This document shows, in pieces, positions 3,207 through 22,202 of a stretch of DNA of 22,202 bases. The position numbers were made by a program, and so were the translations under genes. Position 1 is the first letter of the stretch. Each line of letters starts with the position of its first letter. The stretch spans positions 18,188 to 40,389 of IMG/VR virus record IMGVR_UViG_3300030109_003415; one strand, written 5' to 3'. Source of the stretch: a virus. Below the pieces are notes generated by a model. It was not told the origin of the DNA, ran no database searches, and saw only the letters and a list, made by a program, of their open reading frames with translations.

Positions 3207-3593
3207 TTAAAAATCCTGTTGTTTTATTGTTCCAGTTGCTTGATAATTACTTTTTGAATATTTTTTAGCCTCTTTAACCCCTACAGCATATTCTTGGTCG
3301 AAATATTGAGCTAATTGAATTTCCATGTTTCTAGGGTCTTTATAACCTCCAGCTATAACTTTATTTATGATTACTTCGTGAAATTGAGCAGGAATTTGAT
3401 TCCATGTAGATGTCACAGAGTTAATAGCTAAATCAGCATCTCTAGATATAGCATATATTCTTAAGTCTTTAGCTTCTGATATAGAAGACCAGTCTGTAGT
3501 ATATCCATCTTTTGTTACTGTGTTTGTACCTTTTTCTACAATACCTATTTTTATAAGTTTATCTACAAACCAAGCTCTTGTCTTTTTAGCCAT
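3207..3593 (-). CDS. Hypothetical structural protein, 128 aa
   Basis: No family is recognised. The protein starts with a basic helix (MAKKTRAWFVDKLIKIGIVE) and continues as a mixed alpha/beta sequence without membrane segments or cysteines. Its start overlaps the stop of the 91-residue gene, and it ends one base before the fibre ATG. The position between two adaptor-like proteins and the fibre suggests a head-tail or tail-completion protein. This is inference from gene order. Confidence 0.72.
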   Translation of the reverse strand: MAKKTRAWFVDKLIKIGIVEKGTNTVTKDGYTTDWSSISEAKDLRIYAISRDADLAINSVTSTWNQIPAQFHEVIINKVIAGGYKDPRNMEIQLAQYFDQEYAVGVKEAKKYSKSNYQATGTIKQQDF

Positions 3594-3868
3594 TATCCAT
3601 CCTCCGATGTATCATCATCTATTTTGGGTTTTCCTAGCAACATAGGAATTTGAACGTCATTTAGCCAAACAGATAATATTTTAATTATATTACTGCTAAT
3701 AGTATAGTATCTTTGATTAGCTACAGTTGTAGTTGTATAAGAATCTTTTACTATTTCAGTCCTAGCACAAAAGTCATCCTTAGCTCTATTAAGCCTATTA
3801 ATAATCTCTTTTTCACCTAAATGAGGATGATGTTGCTGTATTAATTCTATCATTTCTTTAGTAGTCAT
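3593..3868 (-). CDS. Head-tail adaptor-like protein, 91 aa
   Basis: The protein opens with a helix (MTTKEMIELIQQHHPHLGEK), then an NRAKDDFCART segment, then beta strands with YYTISSNIIKILSVWLNDVQIP. The order of a short helical N-terminus, a Thr-rich strand, a Tyr-Thr-Ile/Leu turn and an I..I..V strand is typical of small phage head-tail connector or adaptor proteins. It ends in an acidic tail (DDDTSEDG). It is coupled on both sides: 3593 and 3868 are shared stop-start bases. The adaptor call rests on pattern and position. Confidence 0.6.
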   Translation of the reverse strand: MTTKEMIELIQQHHPHLGEKEIINRLNRAKDDFCARTEIVKDSYTTTTVANQRYYTISSNIIKILSVWLNDVQIPMLLGKPKIDDDTSEDG

Positions 3869-4536
3869 TATTCTCCTCTAGGTGTAGCATCTTGTTCCAT
3901 AAACCTAGACATTTCCATGCCATATTGCTGTGTTAAAGTTTGTATTTGAGCTGTTAACATTGTTTGCATTTCATTATCTTCTTCATCTTGAACAAAATCG
4001 CTTATATAAGTTTGCAATATATTTACACAACTTTTTAATACTATTGCTTGTAGAACAGAATCAGGAAGACCAGAAACGGTACTTCCATCTCCAGTAGCTC
4101 CAGTTTTATAGTTAAAATGCCAAATGGTAACTATTTGGTCACCAGTAGGTACTGGAAATATCTTCAATTTAGGGTCATTAGCAGTAGTTACATCATATGT
4201 ATATACAGGCGATTCTACTGTAGCAGTATAAATACTTGTTGAATCTTGAGCTCTTAAAAATTCATAAAAAGGGACAGGAGTACATTCTCTAACTTCTGTT
4301 CCTGAATTTGAAATTTCTCTTGTAACAAGTAAAACTTTCTTTTCTTCAGTAGCATCCATACCAGCACTGCTATTAACTGTAGAGCTATTAGCTACATACT
4401 TAAGTAGTAATTCTGGAGGTAATGAATCAGCAATTTCGTTAACAGCAGCATTTGTCAAATCTTGCAAACTATTAGCAGGAATTGTATTATAATCCGTACC
4501 TATAAGCTCTTCTATCCTTTGATTAATAGTCGCCAC
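3868..4536 (-). CDS. Head-tail connector or adaptor-like structural protein, 222 aa
   Basis: The start is a GTG at 4536, three bases after the stop of the small basic gene, with AGGAG about 13 bases upstream. The N-terminal helix (INQRIEELIGTDYNTIPANS) is followed by a strand-rich middle. A C-terminal pair of helices (LPDSVLQAIVLKSCVNILQT, then a Gln/Met-rich helix) ends the protein. This resembles ring-forming adaptor proteins of short-tailed phages. It precedes a second, smaller adaptor-like gene. No enzymatic motif is seen. Confidence 0.65.
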   Translation of the reverse strand: MATINQRIEELIGTDYNTIPANSLQDLTNAAVNEIADSLPPELLLKYVANSSTVNSSAGMDATEEKKVLLVTREISNSGTEVRECTPVPFYEFLRAQDSTSIYTATVESPVYTYDVTTANDPKLKIFPVPTGDQIVTIWHFNYKTGATGDGSTVSGLPDSVLQAIVLKSCVNILQTYISDFVQDEEDNEMQTMLTAQIQTLTQQYGMEMSRFMEQDATPRGE

Positions 4537-18355: not shown

Positions 18356-18479
18356 AAAGACGCTATGGGTAGCAATATTTATGGCATTCTTTCTACTATT
18401 CTTAGTAGTTAAAGAAAAAGTAAACACGAATAAAATAAAACAAACAATCCTTAAGGAGGGTATAGAATATGTCAAATGA
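18291..18479 (+). CDS. Single-pass membrane protein, 62 aa, overlapping the ubiquitin-like gene
   Basis: The start is a GTG behind an AGGAGG site 7 bases upstream. A charged N-terminal helix (residues 1-24) precedes one membrane segment at about residues 25-40 (LWVAIFMAFFLLFLVV). A Lys-rich tail with the sequence KEKVNTNKIKQTILKEGIEY follows. The last 11 bases overlap the start of the ubiquitin-like gene, whose AAGGAGGG ribosome site lies inside this frame, so the two are probably translated together. It may tether part of the modifier system to the membrane, but no interaction motif is seen. Confidence 0.68.
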   Translation: MRKRYEKNFEIEHLKDTVKCLKKTLWVAIFMAFFLLFLVVKEKVNTNKIKQTILKEGIEYVK

Positions 18480-18681
18480 AACAATAACAATCAATCTATT
18501 AGAGAACGGTGAATTCGCTTCAAGAGAAACATCATCAAAGACAGTTGGTGATTTAAGAAACGAATTAAGCATCCCAGGTGATGCTAATGTTATGGTTGGC
18601 GGAACTATTAGACAAAACGACTATGTTTTGGAAGATAGCGCACTTGTAGCCTATGCAAGTAATAATAAAGTAGGTGGATAG
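18469..18681 (+). CDS. Ubiquitin-like modifier with C-terminal Gly-Gly, 70 aa
   Basis: The sequence fits a beta-grasp fold: strand ETITINLLENG, strand EFASRETSS, the helix KTVGDLRNELSIP in the place of the ubiquitin or MoaD helix, then strands NVMVGGTI and DSALVAYAS. It ends NNKVGG with the stop directly after Gly-Gly, so no processing is needed to expose the tail used for adenylation. The helix phrase TVGDLR and the closing VAYA...VGG resemble MoaD/ThiS and small prokaryotic ubiquitin-like proteins. The genes for an E2-like protein, a JAMM isopeptidase and an E1-like enzyme follow, which supports conjugation to proteins. A sulphur-carrier role is the alternative but is less likely, because no cofactor genes are near. 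The Gly-Gly codons (GGTGGA) are not part of a ribosome site. Confidence 0.85.
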   Translation: MSNETITINLLENGEFASRETSSKTVGDLRNELSIPGDANVMVGGTIRQNDYVLEDSALVAYASNNKVGG

Positions 18682-18693
18682 TAAACGATAACT

Positions 18694-18778
18694 TTAAATG
18701 AGAGCCAATAACTGGTCCTGTAAGCCCTGTCAGATTCCGACCCTAACAGGCAAAGGAATATGTGAGGCTCTCATTTAA
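18694..18778 (+). ncRNA. Structured RNA candidate 2: long stem enclosing an H-type pseudoknot
   Basis: TTAAATGAGAGCC at 18694-18706 pairs perfectly over 13 bp with GGCTCTCATTTAA at 18766-18778. Inside, CCTGT at 18726-18730 pairs with ACAGG at 18746-18750. The loop of that hairpin holds ATTCC at 18734-18738, which pairs with GGAAT at 18755-18759 just downstream, giving an H-type pseudoknot of 5+5 perfect pairs. It lies between the ubiquitin-like gene and the E2-like gene, 19 bases before the latter's ATG. No T-run follows. It may be a leader switch, a processing site, or an independent small RNA. Confidence 0.65.
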
Positions 18779-18797
18779 TACAAACCGAGGAGATTAA

Positions 18798-20300
18798 ATG
18801 GAATATTTTAATGGAGTACAGACTTTTGAAGCTAATGATATTAATAAATTAGCTGAATTAAGTCAAGATGAAGCCAATTTATTGGCAATAGGTCCACAAG
18901 AACTATTCTTTAGTAAACTAGAATCAATTAATACTGAATTAAATTATTATGGTATTGATTCAATAGATGTTACTAATAAATGGAATTGGAGACCTGGTTC
19001 TTATGATAAAATTAAACAATACATGTACAAAAAGCTTGAATTAGACAAAAAAGCTATGAGTGTAAGTAAAATTATGATGAGAGCACAAGATAGAATAAAC
19101 TATATGAACTTTGTTCAAAGACAATCTGTTGATATGGAAAGAGAAAGAGCTAATCTTAAGAGATTAGGTGTTTCGAGAGATGTAGATATTGATGAATTTA
19201 AAGACAAATGCATTGAATTTGTAGATAATTTAATTAGCAATTGTGAAAAAGCATATGAATTAACACAGGAAAAAGTATTAATTGTTCCTTATATCTCATT
19301 AGATGAAGGAAGAAATGCTAAACTATTTCTTGATATAATGTTAAAAGATATGGTTTTATCAGTATATGATGGCCATGAAAGCCCTGTATTAATACAAGAA
19401 ATACCATTACAACCAATTCATATATCATTAACTATGCCTTTAAGACATAAAATAAATGGTATGAATATAGATGTAACACCAAATGGTAAGTATAAATCAG
19501 AAGGACCTGCTTTAACTCATCCATATATATCTTTTAGATATAGTAATGGTAATGGTTATGGTACTGTTTGCTTAGATAGATACTTTGATGATGTTAAAAG
19601 AGCATGTAAAAAGAATGATATGGTAAGTTTATCAATGACTTTAATGCAATGGGCACAATATTATAATATCAAAGTAGCAAATCCATACAATCAACCATAT
19701 ATGTCTCATATAGGTATGCCTGAAAACTTCTCGGATGAATACAAAGCAACTCAACCAGCAAGTAGCGTAACTGAAAGATGCGGAAGGGTATTACATAGCT
19801 TTAGTCAAAAAATAAATAGTGACTATTTTGAAGCAGATGAAGTTATAAGCAAAACATGTAATAACATAAAGTGTTCTCTTAAAAATTCTTGTAATTCTCA
19901 TATGAATATTTCTAGAAGAATAGATAATCTAGAAAGTGAATGGGGATGTCAAGTAGAATCTTTTGTTATGATGGTAGTAGACTGGTTATGGGAAGAATAT
20001 GCTGGTGAAAATGGTGATTTAAGTGCTATGAATGTGCCTTTAAGCTTTTTAACAGGTGATGATGCGCATCAACATAATAGAACAGAAGAAGAATATAAAG
20101 AATATATAGCTACTAAACTATTATGGTATTATGCAAACTCACTTAAACAAGAATTTGATGATTATACATATCAATTCTTAGAAAGGTATCATTTCATAGA
20201 TAAAATCAAAGAAGAACCACCATCTGTAGTTGATATGGATGAAGAACAAGTGAAAATAATAATGAAATCATGGGCAGAGACCCAAGGAGGGAGAAGATAA
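18798..20300 (+). CDS. E2-like ubiquitin-conjugating protein with large extra regions, 500 aa
   Basis: An ACCGAGGAG site precedes the ATG. Residues 241-300 carry the E2 active-site pattern in order: HPYIS (His241, Pro242), GTVCLDRYF with candidate catalytic Cys258, the helical segment LMQWAQYY (Trp285) and ANPYNQP at 294-300. This parallels the HPN...G.hCL...W...pNP..P series of E2 enzymes and bacterial E2-like proteins. The preceding strand-rich part (about 158-235) could supply the E2 sheet. A cysteine cluster at 354-368 (Cys354, Cys359, Cys365, His368) may bind zinc. The N-terminal 150 and C-terminal 130 residues are mainly helical and unrecognised, and may be substrate-binding or E3-like. 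The protein is over three times the size of a simple E2. Its stop overlaps the JAMM gene. Confidence 0.72.
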   Translation: MEYFNGVQTFEANDINKLAELSQDEANLLAIGPQELFFSKLESINTELNYYGIDSIDVTNKWNWRPGSYDKIKQYMYKKLELDKKAMSVSKIMMRAQDRINYMNFVQRQSVDMERERANLKRLGVSRDVDIDEFKDKCIEFVDNLISNCEKAYELTQEKVLIVPYISLDEGRNAKLFLDIMLKDMVLSVYDGHESPVLIQEIPLQPIHISLTMPLRHKINGMNIDVTPNGKYKSEGPALTHPYISFRYSNGNGYGTVCLDRYFDDVKRACKKNDMVSLSMTLMQWAQYYNIKVANPYNQPYMSHIGMPENFSDEYKATQPASSVTERCGRVLHSFSQKINSDYFEADEVISKTCNNIKCSLKNSCNSHMNISRRIDNLESEWGCQVESFVMMVVDWLWEEYAGENGDLSAMNVPLSFLTGDDAHQHNRTEEEYKEYIATKLLWYYANSLKQEFDDYTYQFLERYHFIDKIKEEPPSVVDMDEEQVKIIMKSWAETQGGRR

Positions 20301-21259
20301 TGGAATTAGAAGAAGTGTTTTACATAAAAGAAAAAGACTGGTATAAACTTCAAGGATGGGCTACGTTAGCTTATGAAGAAGATAAAAATGAAATATCAGG
20401 ACTAATGACCGCAGTACCACAAGAAGACGGTAGATTTAAAGTTGGTGATGTGGAAATACTAAAGCAAGAAAATACAGGAACTAATACTGACCTTAATGGA
20501 GACTCTGTAAGTGCTTATATGATGAAATATGGTATGAAGTATAAAAATCCAGATATGAAGTTTGTCTGGTGGCATTCACATCATACTATGGGAGCATTTT
20601 GGTCTGGAACTGATACTAAGGAGATAGATGCATGGAAGAATAGTAGTTTCTCTTTGGCTTTAGTTATAAACCTTAAAGAAGAATACTTGTTTAGAGTTAG
20701 TTTCTGGAAGACAAATGGGCTTCCTATAGAGCAACATGTAGATACTACTCTAACTATTGAAAGAGCTGAACCTAAAATAAATATAACAAATGCTATGAAA
20801 AAGCAATATAAAGAACTATGTTCAAGCCCTCAATCAATGGTTAGATATACTGGCGGTTATAGTACATATGGACAAGGATGGTCTAGAAATGTTAATCCAA
20901 ATCAACAAAATATCTGGCATGGTAATAATAAAGAGTCAGAAAAACAACTTGAAATGGAATATGCATATTCTGAAGCACTTGAACAAGTAGAATCAATGCA
21001 AGATGGCTTTATGGATGGAAGTGTTAGCCATAAAGAGTGGAAAAAGAAAGTTAAAAGAATAAATGAAATCTGCAAAACAAAGAAGTTTCCATTTAAAGTA
21101 GTAGAATTCAAAGAAAATAAAAGGGAACTTTTAAATGTTTTAATGACAAGGCTTCCTAGTGAATTGATTGAATGGGAAGATAATCAACTAAAAGATGAAT
21201 TCGAAACTAAAGAATGGAATAATAGTTTTGGAATAGGAGGAAATGACGTATGGCAATAA
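20300..21259 (+). CDS. JAMM/JAB metallo-isopeptidase, 319 aa
   Basis: The start is the ATG at 20300, overlapping the E2-like stop (TAATG) behind AAGGAGGGAG. An in-frame ATG at 20270 lies inside the E2-like gene and lacks a good site. The complete JAMM zinc motif is present: Glu31 in NEISGL and HSHHTMGAFWSGTD, giving His92, His94, Ser102 and Asp105 with the exact HxH-x7-S-x2-D spacing. The JAB fold should cover residues 1-150. The rest is charged and helical and of unknown role. Family members cut isopeptide or peptide bonds after a ubiquitin-like tail. Because the modifier gene already ends in Gly-Gly, deconjugation is the likelier job here. Its end overlaps the E1-like gene by 10 bases. Confidence 0.9.
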   Translation: MELEEVFYIKEKDWYKLQGWATLAYEEDKNEISGLMTAVPQEDGRFKVGDVEILKQENTGTNTDLNGDSVSAYMMKYGMKYKNPDMKFVWWHSHHTMGAFWSGTDTKEIDAWKNSSFSLALVINLKEEYLFRVSFWKTNGLPIEQHVDTTLTIERAEPKINITNAMKKQYKELCSSPQSMVRYTGGYSTYGQGWSRNVNPNQQNIWHGNNKESEKQLEMEYAYSEALEQVESMQDGFMDGSVSHKEWKKKVKRINEICKTKKFPFKVVEFKENKRELLNVLMTRLPSELIEWEDNQLKDEFETKEWNNSFGIGGNDVWQ

Positions 21260-21918
21260 ATATGAGAAGTAGAGGACTAGTAAACAATCTAAGTGACTTT
21301 AATTTTCATATATTGGGATGCGGTGCTATTGGTAGTGCCGCAGCTACCCAATTAGTGAGAATGGGAGCAACTAATTTCTGTTTATATGATAATGATGAAG
21401 TAGATACAGGAAATGTAGGAGTTTCTCAATATACTTTGTATGATGTAGGTCATGCTAAAGTAGATATGTTAAAGTCAAAGCTACATGATGTAAACGATTT
21501 AGCAGAAATAACATGTGTAGATGAAATGTTTGCTAATTATGTGTTTATGAATGATAATGACATAATAGTCTTAGGTTTTGACAGCATGAAGTCAAGGTTA
21601 GATGCTGTCAAGGCCTTAGGCAAATGGAAATACACCAAACCATATGCTGTTATAGATGGTAGGATGGGAGCTGAACACTATCAGCAATATGTGCTATTAA
21701 AGCCTACTTTAGAAGCATATAAGCAGATATGGTATAGTGATGAAGAAGGTAGCGAAGAACCATGCAATATGAAGGCTACAAGCTACTGTAGTAACATGTC
21801 AGGAAGTTTTATAGCAAATGCTATAAGAAAGATTGTGACAAAACAACCTTATGAGGAGTTTGTATCTCTTCATTTTCCTACAATGTCAATAGAAAAAACT
21901 ACTTGTTTATTTAAATAG
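21250..21918 (+). CDS. E1/ThiF-like adenylating enzyme, 222 aa
   Basis: The ATG follows an AGGAGG site inside the JAMM gene end. The Rossmann ATP-binding loop is GCGAIGS at residues 23-29. The next strand ends in YDNDEVDTGN (Asp47, Asp49, Asn55), followed by Gln60 and Lys70 in DVGHAK, the usual E1 ATP and magnesium-binding residues. The Arg of the standard NxxRQ motif is not present (NVGVSQ). PCNMKATSYC gives Cys172 (or Cys180) as candidate thioester cysteine in the usual place before the last helix. It should adenylate the Gly-Gly tail of the ubiquitin-like protein. It is shorter than MoeB or ThiF (about 250 aa), with no CxxC zinc pairs and no extra domains. Confidence 0.88.
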   Translation: MAINMRSRGLVNNLSDFNFHILGCGAIGSAAATQLVRMGATNFCLYDNDEVDTGNVGVSQYTLYDVGHAKVDMLKSKLHDVNDLAEITCVDEMFANYVFMNDNDIIVLGFDSMKSRLDAVKALGKWKYTKPYAVIDGRMGAEHYQQYVLLKPTLEAYKQIWYSDEEGSEEPCNMKATSYCSNMSGSFIANAIRKIVTKQPYEEFVSLHFPTMSIEKTTCLFK

Positions 21919-22073: not shown

Positions 22074-22202
22074 ATGGCACTAAAAAAGGTAAAAAGAAAG
22101 GCTATATCTCAGGACCCTAAAGTAATGTTACTTTACGGTGCACCAAAAGTGGGAAAAACTACAGCCTTAAGTCAATTAGAAGATTGTCTTATAATTGATA
22201 CA
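22074..22202 (+). CDS. P-loop ATPase, Sak4/RecA-like candidate (partial, C-terminus off the right edge)
   Basis: A TAGGGAGGTG site precedes the ATG. The first 43 residues include a Walker A motif at about 21-30 (YGAPKVGKTT) followed by LEDCLIIDT, the start of the second strand. This opening, with a basic N-terminus, VMLLYGAPKVGKTT and then a strand ending in D, is typical of phage Sak4-type RecA-like ATPases and AAA_24 proteins that act in single-strand DNA annealing and replication. The remainder is outside the window, so family assignment is provisional. Its place suggests that the replication genes follow the modifier genes. Confidence 0.7.
   Translation, partial: MALKKVKRKAISQDPKVMLLYGAPKVGKTTALSQLEDCLIIDT

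Follow-up and report, generated by a model that had tools for sequence, protein, structure and literature searches.

A putative reversible ubiquitin-like modification system encoded by a phage beside its replication genes

Results

Gene layout

The stretch of DNA analysed here (the window, 22,202 nucleotides) comprises bases 18188–40389 of the 49,125-base virus record IMGVR_UViG_3300030109_003415; positions given below are those of the window unless another locus is named. Its plus strand carries, in this order, genes for a putative ubiquitin-like modifier, an E2-like protein, a JAMM isopeptidase and an E1-like adenylating enzyme, and its minus strand carries phage structural genes (P22-like portal, SU10-type major capsid protein, terminase). 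An initial annotation had placed four consecutive, tightly coupled genes at 18469–21918, with the last three overlapping. All four open reading frames (ORFs) are present there; the overlap is 1 base between the E2-like and JAMM genes and 10 bases between the JAMM and E1 genes, and the modifier gene stands upstream of the E2-like gene with a gap of 116 bases.

The four proteins

The modifier gene (18469–18681, plus strand) encodes 70 residues with the C-terminus NNKVGG, the two glycine codons being at 18673–18678. Across 30 homologues the first of these glycines was invariant and the second was conserved in at least 90%. The protein ends exactly at Gly-Gly in 33 of 43 unique homologues, and 1 to about 60 extra residues follow in the other 10, which fits a precursor that would need a peptidase. 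In the modifiers with about 60 residues after Gly-Gly (L069 728–1108, L070) this part is a fused region. The AlphaFold2 (AF2) model of the window protein showed a beta-grasp (pLDDT 83) with a disordered NNKVGG tail; the best Foldseek match was archaeal Mth1743 (E 3.2e-4), followed by ubiquitin, SUMO and archaeal ubiquitin with probabilities of about 1. On the predicted structure, the 70-residue protein qualifies as a ubiquitin-like beta-grasp modifier with C-terminal Gly-Gly, as had been proposed. No Pfam match was obtained for it, and PHROGs, NCBIfam and PADLOC likewise gave nothing above chance level for the modifier or the E2-like protein (e.g., DUF7939); profile searches of the PDB with both alignments returned unrelated matches only.

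The E2-like gene (18798–20300, plus strand) encodes 500 residues with large helical N- and C-terminal parts. Its putative active-site region, HPYISFRYSNGNGYGTVC (19518–19571), includes the predicted catalytic Cys258 (19569–19571). In an alignment of 33 homologues, with 16–84% identity to the window protein, nine columns were invariant, among them P242, Y243 and C258, which fall in the stretch HPYISFRYSNGNGYGTVCLD. The motif can be written as [HFY]PY[IL]...VC[LF], in which Tyr takes the Asn position of HPN; its P, Y and C were invariant (33/33). This protein is the fastest evolving of the four, yet the PY...C motif is invariant. The AF2 model (pLDDT 87.8) consists of helices, strands from about residue 160 to 232, the active-site loop, the Cys and further helices; such a topology (helix, beta-meander, active-site loop, helices) is compatible with the UBC fold. 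In Foldseek searches the UEV domain of TSG101, an E2-fold domain, recurred and had the best target-normalised TM-scores, 0.32–0.41 (E 1.5–6.6, none significant). A viral structure library gave a match to a 435-residue protein of the crAss-like phage cr128_1 (E 0.054, probability 0.72), which has the same length as the gene product at the E2 position of that phage and is thus probably the same protein. No Pfam match and no family match was found, and tblastn of the E2-like and JAMM proteins against 50,697 phage records gave no match. The E2-like active-site region suggested by the initial annotation was upheld as to motif and predicted topology, with weak support from fold searches; the identification of the 500-residue protein as an E2 is probable, not proven, and is the weakest of the four assignments.

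The JAMM/MPN+ isopeptidase gene (20300–21259, plus strand; 319 residues) contains E31 (20390), H92 (20573), H94 (20579), S102 (20603) and D105 (20612), all invariant in 32 sequences, so that the claim of a complete set of metal ligands was confirmed. Its profile matched Rpn11 (E 4.9e-5); the match of Pfam Prok-JAB (3e-4) was just under the cut-off of that model. The E1-like gene (21250–21918, plus strand; 222 residues) encodes a single ThiF domain (Pfam ThiF, 5.5e-20, 72 bits versus a cut-off of 28.1) with the GxGxxG motif and the ATP/Mg residues (D, N, K, D) of an adenylating enzyme, in agreement with the earlier description. Invariant in 30 homologues were G23, G25, G28, D47, D49, N55, Q60, K70, D111 and R116, as well as C172 and C180; C172, the candidate catalytic cysteine (21763–21765), was also invariant in the crAss-like clade described below. 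PDB profile matches included UBA5, MccB, Cap2, BubCD and ThiF-type proteins. The identities of the E1 and the JAMM protein are secure by sequence. Of the profile searches which had been recommended for all four proteins, those for E1 and JAMM gave matches; the modifier was recognised through its fold match, and the profile comparison for the E2-like protein was marginal.

Conservation of the module

In contigs found with E1 or JAMM profiles, which we take to be marine from their IMG sample numbers, the order modifier, E2, JAMM, E1 was seen in every untruncated relative; a distant clade has several small genes inserted between modifier and E2. A second survey was seeded with the neighbouring primase-helicase gene, because contigs are then not chosen via the module itself. 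E1 was present in 56/56 loci with at least 2.3 kb upstream, and all four genes occurred in order in 24 of the 26 loci with at least 6 kb upstream, which substantiates the expectation that they form a unit in related phages. The exceptions were L259 and L260, the latter holding a diverged set: a modifier ending in NKSG, an E2-like protein with HPHI...PCMG, JAMM and E1. Ratios of nonsynonymous to synonymous substitution rates (dN/dS) were about 0.03–0.1 for E1, 0.1–0.3 for JAMM, 0.2–0.45 for E2 and 0.08–0.12 for the modifier (one pair, in which changes were very few, gave 0.57). Purifying selection acts on all four genes, the gene set is far beyond chance, and the module has near-core status within this marine phage lineage. 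Scans of 84,980 bacterial and archaeal genomes with E1 and JAMM patterns found no relative, and a host or cellular source was therefore not identified.

Just upstream of the diverged set in L260 lies a gene with a ParB_N domain (3269–4063; 34.1 bits versus 26.3), resembling an echo of the plasmid PRTRC cassettes, which are discussed below.

A homologous set in crAss-like and Flavobacterium phages

The occurrence of the module in these phages adds to what had been noticed initially. A tblastn search with E1 yielded 77 phage records, led by crAss-like and Flavobacterium psychrophilum phages. Ten neighbourhoods were examined, and they showed the order modifier domain, E2-like protein with invariant HSH and C.G, JAMM and ThiF; in nine of them the modifier domain is fused to a C-terminal region. 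Alignments (hhalign) of marine with crAss-like/Flavobacterium profiles gave 1.2e-32 for E1, over nearly the whole length, and 1.5e-9 for JAMM, and no significant alignment for modifier and E2. The four-gene order is common to both groups (in Steigviridae, with crAss001, and the Fipvunavirus equivalents: phrog_15560, 15310, 21448/16107 and 15670). In crAss-like phages the modifier forms the N-terminal domain of a longer protein, and where processing is expected it has KxxSG(A/G), whereas the marine modifier has a free Gly-Gly; the E2-like protein of the crAss-like phages is diverged (HSH...C.G). In crAss001 the set corresponds to gp79–gp76, near primase and Sak4, and Sak4 and primase genes adjoin the module in both lineages. 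In an E1 tree the marine and crAss/Flavobacterium sequences each formed a supported group; their placement relative to PRTRC and Cap2 E1s was unsupported, with long branches. The crAss-like genes are annotated only as ThiF, "thiamine biosynthesis", "metalloprotease" or hypothetical.

In the crAss-like phage cr106_1 (L075 695–1898) an HNH endonuclease gene splits the modifier domain from its probable C-terminal region. The modifier domain there ends in KKIKSGKF followed by a stop codon, the insertion being right after the Ser-Gly expected as processed end.

Intergenic RNA elements

A structured RNA element was found between the modifier and E2 genes (18690–18785, plus strand), with the conserved sequence GAGAGCCAAUAACUGGUCC ... 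GGCAAAGGAAUAUGUGAGGCUCUC, a variable interior and an outer stem showing compensatory changes. Further copies (L002 8023–8152, L025 5404–5500, L013 6731–6842, and more) are located in the modifier–E2 intergenic region or in the one from E1 to Sak4. No Rfam match was obtained. An exact copy of the 19-base 3' part was present in at least 119 stretches of viral contigs, and among 78 new loci checked, 57 gave no match to the module; the element is probably separate from the ubiquitin-like system. A second class of hairpins, with the conserved sequence CUAGACAURNGUGGCGGUCUAGCA, occupies the same intergenic site (L029 2778–2977, L035 4470–4679, L037 797–913), in L029 nested within the first element.

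Neighbouring genes

Downstream of E1 follow, in order, a Sak4-like ATPase, an uncharacterised protein, which from its position is possibly similar to single-stranded DNA-binding proteins, and the primase-helicase. The ATPase gene starts at 22074 (plus strand; phrog_124 Sak4-like, 1.6e-16) and runs past the window end at 22202; it is a conserved neighbour, outside the module. In the same genome, to the right of the window, a spore photoproduct lyase-like radical S-adenosylmethionine gene was noted (L008 3804–4664; Pfam SPL, 1.3e-21). Elsewhere in the record, the tested part of a protein of 2917 residues (L007 8995–17748) had no Pfam match. At L007 3–4445 a minus-strand gene of great length exits at the left end of the 49-kb record and a minus-strand ORF (L008 7975–8925) enters from the right end; with genes crossing both ends, the record possibly represents a complete genome, circular or permuted.

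Discussion

The four genes probably constitute a phage-encoded, reversible ubiquitin-like modification system which is expressed with the replication genes; covalent conjugation and each catalytic step are what we infer from sequence motifs. JAMM would trim the modifier to its Gly-Gly end where a tail exists. E1 would then adenylate the Gly-Gly carboxylate with ATP and take over the modifier as a thioester, probably on Cys172, from where it could be transferred to Cys258 of the E2-like protein and subsequently to a lysine of the target. Since no E3 was recognised, the large helical regions of the E2-like protein probably select the substrate. JAMM could later take the modifier off the target.

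Several observations weigh against such a system. Neither an E3 nor a substrate was seen; the fold search of the PDB with the E2-like model gave nothing below E 0.001; and when the E2-like profile was compared with four human E2s, the score exceeded shuffled controls only slightly, with 3 of 150 block shuffles reaching it. In that comparison HPNI and G-x-[IV]-C-L-D were aligned correctly to the E2-like protein. Furthermore, the E1 has Ser-Gln where MoeB/ThiF-type enzymes presumably have Arg-Gln. Weak fold and profile evidence for an E2 would agree with a scheme in which the 500-residue protein is something else and E1 itself conjugates or activates the modifier, or in which the product of the system is not a protein; this appears distinctly unlikely in view of the invariant PY...C, the E2-like topology and the resemblance to the HPHI...PCMG (L260) and HSH...PCLG (crAss-like) versions. 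Highly improbable is a ThiS/MoaD-type sulphur carrier, acting in thiamine or cofactor synthesis or in tRNA or nucleotide thiolation, with the E1 as a ThiF and JAMM trimming or desulphurising the carrier. Although the best NCBIfam matches of the E1 are to ThiF, Mth1743 came first in the fold search with the modifier and a crAss-like homologue is named "thiamine biosynthesis protein" in GenBank, the ThiF score was 69.5 bits versus a curated cut-off of 159, with other models lower, and ThiF/MoeB equivalog identity was rejected. Beside the module there was no recognisable gene for ThiG, a rhodanese, IscS or nucleoside thiolation, and an E2-like protein with an invariant Cys and an isopeptidase-type JAMM always accompany the modifier, which thus does not look like a mere sulphur carrier.

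The main rival concerns the purpose and not the chemistry: the system could tag and inactivate host defence proteins, or JAMM and a decoy modifier could disturb a host conjugation system of the Bil type or of the cyclic oligonucleotide-based antiphage signalling system (CBASS) type. Comparable host systems do act against phages (PMC10097602, PMC11153139), and the dN/dS of the E2-like protein is what an interface with changing substrates might show. However, the module is present almost throughout the lineage and its E1 and modifier are strictly conserved, as would be expected of a core function more than of a patchily distributed counter-defence gene, and the synteny with replication genes extends over two distant phage groups; we consider counter-defence unlikely. 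That phages carry a plasmid-type PRTRC cassette, with whichever partition or replication role PRTRC has, could be suspected from the relationship of PRTRC ThiF and PRTRC A to the phage E1 and JAMM and from the ParB-domain gene of L260. This is very unlikely, as every PRTRC model scored far under its cut-off, the E2-like protein and modifier are without detectable similarity to PRTRC B and C, and no ParB gene could be recognised near the module within the window, where the small upstream ORFs were scanned in part.

The reading as a ubiquitin-like conjugation and removal system, as put forward initially, was thus supported: neither lack of an E2-like topology in the model, nor separation of the four genes in relatives, nor a simple sulphur-carrier context was encountered. 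As to its substrate, the placement beside Sak4 and primase, common to two distant phage groups, points by context to phage or host DNA replication-recombination proteins rather than to defence proteins, the virion or others; this assignment is a tentative one. With even more reserve it may be suggested that the complete pathway belongs to the core of the replication module and is vertically kept there in two large phage groups (the marine and the crAss-like/Flavobacterium phages), where reversible tagging would control replication-recombination proteins of phage or host.

To our knowledge, bacterial ubiquitin-like operons have so far been described from hosts or plasmids, and most of those whose role has been demonstrated are antiviral. 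No published description of a complete phage-encoded set was found in the open-access main texts searched; the main texts of the crAss001 paper (PMC6235969) and of Yutin 2021 (PMC7886860) mention neither ubiquitin nor ThiF. The annotations "thiamine biosynthesis ThiF" and "metalloprotease" in crAss-like phages would seem to be misleading. Since a homologous set is present in crAss001 and DAC15, which are cultured on laboratory Bacteroides, its substrates and its function are directly testable, and existing infection proteomes could be searched again for lysines with Gly remnants.

Comparison with known systems

Prokaryotic ubiquitin-like operons have been known since Iyer et al. 2006 (PMC1779556). 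Bil (BilABCD) similarly has four genes, for modifier, E2, JAMM and E1. In that system BilA carries a pair of ubiquitin-like domains, BilB a CEHH motif and BilD a pair of adenylation domains (PMC11354881). The initial annotation had set the module apart from Bil by its gene order and large E2-like protein. All three Bil features are lacking here: the single-domain modifier of 70 residues, the absence of a CEHH-spaced His after C258 and the single-domain E1 of 222 residues rule out Bil identity. Cap2/Cap3 of type II CBASS, related E1-E2 fusions and BubCD of Bub share similarity in the ThiF/E1 domain; type II CBASS identity is ruled out by the stand-alone, unfused E1, and no CD-NTase adjoins the module. 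Ubiquitin-like and JAB domains borne by a phage are also known from lambda tail assembly, where TapI and TapK form a ubiquitin-like and JAB-NlpC pair (PMC1779556); that pair is without E1 or E2 and belongs to a tail module, whereas the present set lies in a replication operon.

The PRTRC cassettes of plasmids are likewise borne by a mobile element and encode modifier, E2-like protein, JAB and ThiF separately. Profile comparison showed that PRTRC ThiF is related to the phage E1s (hhalign, 1e-9 and 8.8e-13) and PRTRC A to the phage JAMM; E2 versus PRTRC B and modifier versus PRTRC C were no better than shuffled or unrelated controls. The PRTRC models remained far under their cut-offs (ThiF 28.9 versus 144.75 bits, A 14.6 versus 101.8), and B and C gave no match. 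The cassette, which in our identification probably corresponds to row 6d of Iyer et al. 2006, comprises ParB and other proteins in addition to A, B, C and ThiF, in a gene order unlike that of the phage module. Judged by these comparisons, the module is distinct from Bil, CBASS and PRTRC, the relationship to PRTRC ThiF notwithstanding; here the virus itself encodes modifier, E1, E2-like protein and isopeptidase as a near-core module.

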